Shown: in pieces, positions 51,809-54,197 of the stretch
Position numbering within the stretch: position 1 is the stretch's first letter
Layout: every line of letters begins with the position of its first letter
Source of the DNA: Myroides odoratimimus
GTDB lineage: Bacteria; Bacteroidota; Bacteroidia; Flavobacteriales; Flavobacteriaceae
Assembly (NCBI RefSeq): GCF_001485415.1
Contig: NZ_BCMQ01000005.1
Location: forward strand, 62,001 to 126,000
DNA: 64,000 nucleotides
Direction of reading: 5' to 3'
Made by a program: the position numbers and the translations under genes
The notes under the pieces: model-generated
What the model was told of the DNA's origin: nothing
The model's input: only the letters and a program-made list of their open reading frames with translations
The model's database searches: none

Positions 51809-51941
51809 GTTCTGATATGGGTTTTATGAACATTTAAAAGTAATTAAAATAAATGAATTGAATTTAGTTTAATGAAGTATTAAAAATTTTATGGTTCCTA
51901 AAAGCTTTTGTAACTTTACTTTTCTTCAATTAAATATACAT

Positions 51942-52814
51942 ATGAAATCTATAGAACCTAAAGATATATCTGTAGTAGAATTACAGAGATTAATGCAGAC
52001 GTCTATCGGACCTCGTCCTATAGCACTAGCAAGTACCGTAGATGCTGATGGTAGACCTAACCTGTCGCCGTTTAGCTTCTTTAATATGGTGAGTACTAAC
52101 CCGCCTATATTGGTCTTCTCTCCGTCTAGACGTGTAAGAGATAATACGAATAAACATACCTTATTTAACGTACAAGCTAATCTACAAGTAGTGATTAACG
52201 TGGTGACTTATGATATGGTACAGCAGACTTCTCTATCTAGTACAGAATATAAGGATGGGGTGAATGAGTTTGTCAAATCAGGATTGACGATGGTGCCATC
52301 TGATATCGTGAAGCCATTCAGAGTCAAAGAAAGTCCAGTGCAGTATGAATGTGTGGTACAGGAGGTAATCGGACTGGGTAATGATGGAGGTGCTGGTAAT
52401 CTAGTAATCTGTGAGGTGGTAAAAATACATGTCAATGAGGAAATATTAGATGAGAACGGACAGATAGATCAGCATAAGATAGATCTAGTAGCACGTATGG
52501 GAGCGAACTGGTATACTCGTGCGAATGATGGTATATTTGAAGTAGAAAAACCATTGACTACACTAGGCCTAGGAGTAGATGCTCTACCAGAAGGAGTAGT
52601 GGAGAGTGGAGTGTTCTCTGGTAATGACCTTGGAGTATTAGGTAATGTAGAGCAGCTGCCTACGGAAGAGGAGGTTGCTTCTTTTGTGAATGCAAATGAA
52701 GAGTTAAAAGAAATTTTGGTTGCTAAGAATCAAATCAATAAATTTAAATTAGCAAAAAAATATTTAGAAGAAAATAATGTACCTTTGGCTTGGAAAACAA
52801 TTTTAGCCAAATAG
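51942..52814 (+). CDS. Flavin reductase-like (FMN-binding split barrel) protein
   Basis: From ATG 51942, 290 residues; a TAACTTTA box at 51911-51918 supports this start over the frame reaching 51891. The core has SIGPRPIALASTVDADGRPNLSPFSFFNMVSTNPPILVFSPSRR, as in FMN-binding oxidoreductases of the flavin reductase family. The last 60 residues (EEVASFVNANEELKEI...) are a helical extension that does not belong to the barrel. Likely NAD(P)H:FMN-type reductase or FMN carrier; physiological partner unknown. Separated by 25 bases from the DUF3127 gene. Confidence 0.88.
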   Translation: MKSIEPKDISVVELQRLMQTSIGPRPIALASTVDADGRPNLSPFSFFNMVSTNPPILVFSPSRRVRDNTNKHTLFNVQANLQVVINVVTYDMVQQTSLSSTEYKDGVNEFVKSGLTMVPSDIVKPFRVKESPVQYECVVQEVIGLGNDGGAGNLVICEVVKIHVNEEILDENGQIDQHKIDLVARMGANWYTRANDGIFEVEKPLTTLGLGVDALPEGVVESGVFSGNDLGVLGNVEQLPTEEEVASFVNANEELKEILVAKNQINKFKLAKKYLEENNVPLAWKTILAK

Positions 52815-52839: not shown

Positions 52840-53499
52840 ATGGAAGTTACAGGAAGAATCAAATTAATTGGACATACACAAGATATCAGTTCATCATTCA
52901 GAAAGAGAGAAGTAGTAGTAACTACGGAAGAGCAATATCCTCAGCACATTATGATTGAGTTTACACAAGATAAAGTAAATTTATTAGACTCTTATCAAGT
53001 AGGTGAGCAAGTACGTGTATCTATTAATTTGAGAGGTAGAGAGTGGCAAAGTCCACAAGGAGAAATCAGATACTTTAATACAATCCAAGGGTGGAGAATA
53101 GAACACATGATGCCAGTTCAACAAGGTGGTAACATGGGACAAAACCAACAACCTTATATGGGACAACAAGATAATATGCAGTCTCAATACGGAAATGCTG
53201 GTATGCAACAACAATCTAACCAACAACAAGGTTTCGCTCAGAACAATCAAGCTCAACAAATGGGTGGGTTTAATCAAGGGCAACAAGGTGGTTTCGCTCA
53301 AAATAACCAAGCTCAACAAGGAGGATTTAACCAAAACCAACAACAAGGTTTTGCTCAGAATACTCAATCTCAACAAATGGGAGGGTTCAATCAAAACCAA
53401 AACCAACAAGGTTTTAACCAAGGACAAAGTAATATGGGACAACAGTTTCCTCCTGCTTCAAGCTATATGGAGGAAGATCACGATGATTTACCATTCTAA
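52840..53499 (+). CDS. DUF3127 protein with SSB-like OB fold, Q/N/G-rich repeat and acidic SSB-like tip
   Basis: 219 residues. Residues 1-90 are DUF3127: five-strand pattern with REVVVTTEEQYPQHIMIEF and VSINLRGREW, which resembles an OB fold of single-strand DNA binding proteins. Residues 95-208 are almost only Q, N, G, M, F, A and S, with three imperfect copies of a GFAQNNQAQQ-type unit (131, 151 and 170). The last residues EEDHDDLPF closely match the acidic, hydrophobic-ended tip by which SSB recruits repair and replication enzymes. I infer a paralogue of SSB or an RNA/DNA binder. It lies 25 bases after the flavin reductase. Confidence 0.85.
   Translation: MEVTGRIKLIGHTQDISSSFRKREVVVTTEEQYPQHIMIEFTQDKVNLLDSYQVGEQVRVSINLRGREWQSPQGEIRYFNTIQGWRIEHMMPVQQGGNMGQNQQPYMGQQDNMQSQYGNAGMQQQSNQQQGFAQNNQAQQMGGFNQGQQGGFAQNNQAQQGGFNQNQQQGFAQNTQSQQMGGFNQNQNQQGFNQGQSNMGQQFPPASSYMEEDHDDLPF
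53227..53409 (+). repeat. In-gene tandem repeat of about 57-66 bp in the DUF3127 linker
   Basis: Three diverged direct copies begin with CAACAAGGT at about 53226, 53281 and 53341 and encode the Gln/Asn/Gly-rich units. Unit lengths differ by multiples of three, which keeps the frame open and permits length change by slippage. Confidence 0.65.
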
Positions 53500-53516: not shown

Positions 53517-53546
53517 GTCCCTAAGATTATTCTTAGGGACTTTTTT
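53517..53546 (+). terminator. Terminator between DUF3127 gene and aat, touching the aat start codon
   Basis: Arms GTCCCTAAG (53517-53525) and CTTAGGGAC (53532-53540), followed by six T residues (53541-53546). The ATG of aat follows at 53547 with no base between. Confidence 0.85.
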
Positions 53547-54197
53547 ATGCCTATGATAACACTCTTAGACAGTAATTACTTATACTTTCCAGCAGTAGAT
53601 AATACGCATGAGTCAGGTATTTTAGCCATCGGTGGTGATTTATCTGCTAATAGATTGATATTAGCGTATAAGTCTGGGATATTTCCTTGGTTTGAAGATG
53701 GAGAGCCTATTACATGGTGGTCTCCTAATATGCGTATGGTGCTAGAGCCTGATGAGGTATATATCTCTAAGAGTATGCGTAGTATCTTAAAGAAAAATAT
53801 ATTTACAGTTACTTTTAATACTTGTTTTGCAGATGTAATTAATAATTGCCAGAACGCTAAGCGCGATGGGCAGTTAGGTACTTGGATTACAGATGATATG
53901 ATCAAGGCATACTGCAATCTACATGACTTAGGCATCGCTAAATCTGTAGAGGTTTGGCAAGATGGAGAACTGGTAGGTGGTCTCTATGGTGTAGATATGA
54001 AACCTGTGTTCTGTGGAGAGAGTATGTTCTCCTTCGTACCAAATGCTAGTAAAGTAGCTTTTATCTACTTATGTGAATATCTAAGTGATAAAAAGTATAA
54101 GCTACTAGACTGTCAAGTATATAATGATCATCTAAGTTCTTTAGGTGCTTATGAGATACCTAGAGAGGTATTTCTAGAATATTTACCTAAGAGGTAA
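53547..54197 (+). CDS. aat: Leucyl/phenylalanyl-tRNA-protein transferase
   Basis: 216 residues (ATG at 53547 or 53553). Signatures: YLYFPAVDNTHESGILAIGGDLSANRLILAYKSGIFPWF, PITWWSPNMRMVLEPDE and the GGLYGVDMKPVFCGESMFS core. The enzyme adds Leu or Phe to N-terminal Lys or Arg of proteins and so marks them for ClpS-ClpAP in the N-end rule pathway. The start codon directly follows the T run of a terminator, so the message must be read-through or nearly leaderless. The 3' end overlaps thiF by 11 bases, tail to tail. Confidence 0.95.
   Translation: MPMITLLDSNYLYFPAVDNTHESGILAIGGDLSANRLILAYKSGIFPWFEDGEPITWWSPNMRMVLEPDEVYISKSMRSILKKNIFTVTFNTCFADVINNCQNAKRDGQLGTWITDDMIKAYCNLHDLGIAKSVEVWQDGELVGGLYGVDMKPVFCGESMFSFVPNASKVAFIYLCEYLSDKKYKLLDCQVYNDHLSSLGAYEIPREVFLEYLPKR

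Follow-up and report, generated by a model that had tools for sequence, protein, structure and literature searches.

An SSB-like DUF3127 protein of Myroides odoratimimus points to a probable second SSB family in Bacteroidota and their phages

Few proteins are regarded as necessary to nearly every bacterium, and the single-stranded DNA-binding protein SSB is one of them. A gene of Myroides odoratimimus raises the question of whether this activity could also come from a family to which Pfam gives no described function. The gene lies on contig NZ_BCMQ01000005.1, in the 64,000-nucleotide stretch of DNA that was analyzed here as a whole (the window; Table 1), and residues 2-88 of its product match DUF3127 (PF11325) with an E-value of 6.1e-31, scoring 106.9 bits where the cut-off is 27; it is the single DUF3127 match in the genome. 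Followed across other genomes, the finding seems to grow from one SSB-like protein into a second SSB family that has taken over in symbionts.

Table 1. Features of the DUF3127 locus and its surroundings, in window coordinates
Feature	Position	Strand	Evidence
DUF3127 gene, SSB-like protein, 219 aa, ATG start	52840..53499	+	ORF, Pfam and PHROG
OB-fold domain (predicted), residues 1-96	52840..53127	+	AlphaFold, Foldseek, VIA-align, profile alignment to 1eyg
Nearly uncharged Q/N/G-rich linker, residues 90-209	53107..53466	+	composition; disorder inferred from composition
60-bp tandem repeat within the linker, 3.3 copies	53218..53414	+	Tandem Repeats Finder
Acidic tip EEDHDDLPF, as in SSB C-termini	53470..53496	+	sequence, homologue comparison
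Flavin reductase-like gene, upstream neighbour, 25 bp gap to the DUF3127 gene	51891..52814	+	domain match
Terminator-like hairpin and T run, 3' of the DUF3127 gene, abutting the aat start codon	53517..53540	+	hairpin scan
aat (Leu/Phe-tRNA protein transferase), downstream neighbour	53547..54197	+	domain match

From an 86-sequence alignment, AlphaFold predicted an OB fold of the SSB type for residues 1-96 (a monomer model, mean pLDDT 95.4, pTM 0.82), with strands at residues 2-10, 21-29 and 36-42, a helix at 43-51 and further strands at 57-70 and 76-89. A first-pass annotation of this DNA had read an OB-like N-terminus from the letters and had called for such a structure prediction, which bears it out. 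Foldseek returned 119 PDB matches at E<=0.001, and SSBs made up 50 of 50 among the matches listed (best E 3.8e-6). VIA-align placed the Salinibacter SSB (Z 11.5) level with PriB (1woc_C, Z 11.3), so fold alone does not tell SSB from PriB and it is sequence that separates them; a fold class missing from the VIA-align list is no evidence against that class. PriB is not known to have a C-terminal tail or a tip. It shares the OB type of the DUF3127 protein, but the latter carries both.

At the level of sequence, a profile of 86 DUF3127 homologues (A2) retrieved only SSBs from the PDB at E<=1, 14 sequences in total, the best match (4.5e-5) being the Deinococcus radiodurans SSB (1se8/3udg), and a smaller DUF3127 profile (A1) found none in the PDB at E<=1. 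Aligned by hhalign with 26 SSBs of the same order, the family gave an E-value of 3e-5 and a probability of 73. Among the residues that one report names as stacking on bases in E. coli SSB (W40, W54, F60 and W88; PMC3991886), the one whose position was mapped onto DUF3127 is W88 (mature numbering). This residue, the W of TRKW in 1eyg, aligns with W69 of the window protein, the W of GREW, and an aromatic residue fills this position in 219 of 220 homologues (a pattern recognised 215 of them and inspection by eye four; L286 is the remaining one). Matches to IF3_C at E<=0.1 occurred in 35 of the 86 members (best 0.0033), and IF3_C was rejected as the identity of the domain, being under its cut-off in every result table.

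The canonical SSB family PF00436 scored 14.8 bits on the window domain, under its cut-off of 26, and the earlier assignment of the N-terminus to DUF3127 and not to SSB stands. By its features this would be an SSB-like protein outside PF00436 membership. With canonical SSB (PF00436, TIGR00621) it shares the predicted OB fold, a flexible-looking linker, an acidic tip ending in PF and the aromatic residue at the W88 position; it differs in its separate Pfam family and in a core of about 90 residues, against about 105 in SSB. We regard the DUF3127 core as a remote homologue of SSB, on the strength of the profiles, and as resembling it in predicted fold. Taken with the tip, which is conserved family-wide, this makes the first-pass description of a protein built like an SSB stronger than that annotation had thought.

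In the window protein the acidic DxPF end stands behind a linker whose flexibility is suggested by its composition. The PF end was present in 31 of 31 proteins of a first phylum-wide set (the protein itself and the top 30 out of 171 genomes), in 78 of 80 proteins on named genome contigs (the 80 highest-ranking among 427 relatives), in 28 of 29 near relatives, the exception, L201, being cut off by the end of its contig, in six of six proteins from family f2, and in all 12 proteins read from the family of the 345-kb genome G344 (11 reduced genomes and the 1.3-Mb G353). Viral homologues kept it in 79 of 100 cases. The two misses among the 80 are L040, in which DDLPF is followed by seven residues, and L111, which has an early stop. 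The homologue in G024 (L295) was missed by a filter that demanded a PF end and was left out of the tip reading. The tip had been called very close to that of SSB, with its conservation among homologues as one of two points, next to the OB fold, on which the idea would stand or fall, and in these sets it is widely conserved.

Several proteins of both families carry one to seven extra residues after PF (L228 and L229 in PF00436; L040, L139, L144 and L285 in DUF3127). If docking depends on the terminal carboxylate, these additions should prevent it. In L111, from a Winogradskyella MAG, the DUF3127 frame is broken by a stop at codon 5 (L111:6001-6015), maybe through an assembly or sequencing error.

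How this protein relates to ordinary SSB depends on the genome in which it is found. DUF3127 is present in 171 of 296 Bacteroidota genomes and, among 14 control genomes, only in Bacteroides ihuae. PF00436 is present in 293 of the 296, the exceptions being G024 and G220, which have DUF3127, and G136, which has neither; 169 genomes therefore have both families, 124 only PF00436, two only DUF3127 and one neither. Because the 125 genomes that are without DUF3127 all have PF00436, apart from G136, DUF3127 is evidently dispensable where an ordinary SSB exists. M. odoratimimus itself has two PF00436 proteins besides DUF3127: one lies in a MutY-SSB-GldD locus and ends NNDNLPF, and the other (L002:1486-1821, plus strand) is 111 residues long, with no tail and no tip. 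Such tail-less canonical SSBs recur in the order, accounting for seven of the 26 sequences in a canonical-SSB profile (A3). In the free-living G012, the sole PF00436 protein, of 110 residues, ends right after the OB domain, and its DUF3127 protein ends GDDDDDLPF, so that the tip, which docks partners in ordinary SSB, was found on DUF3127 only; this arrangement is not general, since in G095, a member of that family, one of two PF00436 proteins does bear a tip.

The reduced genomes of symbionts supplied the most telling test. G344 has kept DUF3127 and gave no PF00436 match, and its family was sampled with 61 genomes, 60 of about 200-600 kb and the one of 1.3 Mb (G353). DUF3127 was found in 57 of the 61, with a partial domain match only in G375, and in a search run to E<=10 PF00436 rose over its cut-off in one, G353. 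The other PF00436 rows within that limit were a RecG-like stretch in G370, similar stretches in G406 and G399 (two rows), and, in G353, a frame that is broken. Profile A3, built from 26 canonical SSBs of the order and searched at E<=1, returned 35 rows over the 61 genomes, one of which was the true SSB of G353 (E 9.4e-30). All of the other 34 (2.8e-5 to 0.76, in 33 genomes) overlap the DUF3127 gene, and 28 of the 61 genomes gave no row. Thus, where a search for canonical SSB lands at all in the reduced genomes of this family, it lands on DUF3127. One of the reduced symbionts can be named: G381 is the cockroach symbiont Blattabacterium sp. str. Bge, its small contig being 100% identical to that strain's plasmid over 3000 of 3000 bases. 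In four of the 60 reduced genomes neither family was found, even at E<=10 (G354, G361, G371 and G377; two are in 8 and 20 contigs and two were scored 72-73% complete). These may be very reduced cells without either SSB, or their genes may be too divergent or absent from the assemblies.

Outside this family, PF00436 was not found at E<=0.001 in five genomes of 1.6-1.9 Mb (G337, G349, G412, G413 and G340), all five of which have DUF3127. In the family of G337 (four of four genomes examined) and in the single-contig, 1.9-Mb G340, the DUF3127 protein ends DDLPF, the one from G337 being read from an inner Met onward. No SSB-like gene other than DUF3127 was detected in 56 of the 60 reduced symbiont genomes, nor in five genomes elsewhere in the order. 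It had been proposed for the window protein that it may compete with or specialise from SSB; that part is possible in M. odoratimimus, with its two PF00436 SSBs, but does not describe a family that can apparently stand alone elsewhere.

Two observations on these small genomes may be added. A RecG-like helicase is present in G370, where canonical SSB was not found, and RecG is among the SSB-tip partners reported in PMC10164576. In G344, a protease-like protein (L289:714-2951, minus strand; HtrA-like by eye) has long DLKN, DDEYNK and KDKIE repeats, which are odd in a genome as small as 345 kb.

The phage copies place DUF3127 in a setting familiar for SSB, for which the company of an annealase, an exonuclease and a primase is the usual place in phage genomes. 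The domain occurs in 115 phage records. In Nonlabens phage P12024L the genes ahead of it encode an Erf annealase and a YqaJ exonuclease, and a primase comes three genes later; in Cellulophaga phage phi18:3 a RecT lies about 1.4 kb upstream, in phage Gundel_1 a NinG two genes on, and phage Fpv5 has a RusA and a DNA polymerase no more than 3 kb away. Among 148 neighbouring ORFs, from 37 of 52 usable loci (of 100) and without a control set of distant ORFs, the commonest named families were exonucleases (two PHROGs with 10 each), helicases (as many as eight) and primase/polymerase (six), with Erf or RecT annealases at three to four each; most of the ORFs match none of these families. Of the 21 viral homologues that have no PF end, 13 are 94 residues or shorter (88-94 residues: L131, L136, L143, L146, L152, L159, L162, L169, L170, L186, L188, L273 and L275). 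Such short, tip-less versions might coat DNA without recruiting host partners. A tree of about 100 columns, of which only coarse points hold, mixed viral and chromosomal rows (at least four changes are forced by its starred branches) and united its nine rows of the G344 family as one side of a branch (SH-aLRT 85).

Part of this relationship was already in databases. Residues 1-91 of the window protein match PHROG 4932, "single strand DNA binding protein", at E 2.2e-36 (profile positions 1-92 of 117), and RefSeq phage records also give the DUF3127 protein this name. PHROG 4932 matches the core, but it is a family of phage proteins, its label is the annotation of its members, and some phage copies have no tip. 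NCBIfam had no model over its cut-off for the window protein or two reduced-genome homologues, which gave weak rows only. The first-pass annotation did not know an SSB link as described. Among the papers listed from the open-access literature (most subscription papers lay outside the scope of the search) we found none on the cellular DUF3127 protein or on SSB replacement in Blattabacterium, but the databases do carry the link. The sole open-access paper found with the word DUF3127 concerns a Pantoea phage and uses the name for a domain within an ordinary phage SSB (PMC8004638).

We therefore consider it probable, at roughly 85%, that DUF3127 is a second, tip-bearing SSB family of Bacteroidota and their phages that is able to serve as the sole SSB. 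From what was computed, namely the predicted fold, the remote SSB homology, the tip, the phage context and the retention without an ordinary SSB, we infer single-stranded DNA binding, an oligomeric state, docking of partners and sole SSB function. The OB-fold core, probably as an oligomer, would coat single-stranded DNA; the acidic tip ending in PF would dock the replication and repair partners of ordinary SSB, and the linker would merely set the reach between the two. Where PF00436 is also present, the two proteins would share or divide the work; Blattabacterium and its relatives, which have lost it, would be cases in which DUF3127 does the job alone. Against this reading count the PF00436 score under its cut-off, the empty PDB result of profile A1 and chromosomal neighbours unrelated to repair, and likewise the 125 genomes that do without DUF3127, the four reduced genomes with neither family, the 28 genomes in which A3 gave no row, the partial domain of G375 and the 21 viral homologues with no PF end. 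On essentiality the genomes point both ways, with retention in the 56 reduced genomes that are without PF00436 and absence from the 125 of 296 Bacteroidota.

A stronger version of the same idea, which we hold only tentatively and would not bet on, is that the main, replicative SSB of Flavobacteriales would be DUF3127, with ordinary SSB in an accessory role there. This would explain why obligate symbionts lost the ordinary SSB and kept DUF3127, why G012 keeps just a tail-less ordinary SSB, and why in M. odoratimimus it is DUF3127 that has a long linker like that of E. coli SSB. If true, the role of a core replication protein would have passed, within one bacterial phylum, to a non-orthologous one.

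Conversely, DUF3127 may be an accessory SSB for recombination, competence or phage-related functions, in the manner of SsbB, and not replicative even in symbionts. SsbB is a close paralogue of SsbA, whereas DUF3127 is a distant family. The likeness lies in a second SSB alongside the main one in a single genome, as described for Bacillus and Streptococcus in PMC3128108. An accessory role fits the 169 of 171 sampled DUF3127 genomes that carry both families, the phage copies near recombination genes and the many genomes that do without DUF3127, and in free-living genomes it overlaps with the second-family explanation that we prefer. As a full account it is unlikely, because an accessory gene would be expected to be lost first, and this one is kept in nearly all reduced genomes that are without PF00436; in G012, moreover, the tip is on DUF3127 while the sole PF00436 protein is tail-less.

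The linker invites a further suggestion. In residues 90-209 of the window protein, Q accounts for 35%, N for 15% and G for 17% (67% together); D occurs once, and K, R and E are absent. Among 118 chromosomal DUF3127 proteins with an intact tip, 101 are 120-129 residues long and only seven have 140 or more; the M. odoratimimus protein, a member of PF11325, has a longer linker than most members seen. The repeat is thus lineage-specific, and a long linker is not a family trait; in the Myroides lineage the linker would have grown by a 20-residue repeat. The linker was accordingly set aside as the main point of the locus. Of the disordered repeat linker originally described, the Q/N/G-rich composition and the 60-bp repeat are there, with disorder suggested by composition, but the long linker is not family-wide. 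The linker of E. coli SSB resembles it in composition only.

The long Q/N/G linker could make the Myroides protein a condensate-forming SSB variant with a lineage-specific role, an idea compatible with a second SSB family. It is encouraged by the composition, with a single charged residue in 120, by the tandem repeat, by the shorter, charged tail that the genome's own tip-bearing canonical SSB has instead, and by a report that ties the E. coli SSB linker to condensation (PMC12143593). We think it rather improbable all the same, as long linkers are rare in the family and repeats readily expand without function. Least likely by far is a PriB-like or RNA-binding OB protein whose tip regulates SSB partners without coating single-stranded DNA: the VIA-align scores and the IF3_C matches lean that way, but the profile matches in the PDB are to SSBs only, the W88-equivalent position stays aromatic, and it is hard to see what a protein that only regulates would do in genomes in which no other SSB was found.

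Should DUF3127 be all the SSB that Blattabacterium and its kin have, a distant relative that is without a function in Pfam has replaced a core replication protein there, and gene inventories that score SSB as missing in such small genomes would be wrong. For the genetics of Bacteroidota, the question becomes which SSB is essential and whether the two share partners through the same tip.

On chromosomes the gene has stable company of another kind. Across 80 named loci, 67 of them with full flanks, GreA, HIT, a histidine kinase, the flavin reductase and aat recur as its neighbours, each at 70 to 78 of the 80, with the flavin reductase beside the DUF3127 gene in 72 and aat in 78; the idea of a DNA-repair neighbourhood was rejected on these grounds. 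None of the conserved neighbours is retained at five loci from reduced or SSB-less genomes. The terminator-like hairpin between the DUF3127 gene and aat is weak, one having been found against 1.3 expected in shuffled sequence. Since with its T run (53517-53546) it directly precedes the aat start codon, aat may need its own transcription start or readthrough.
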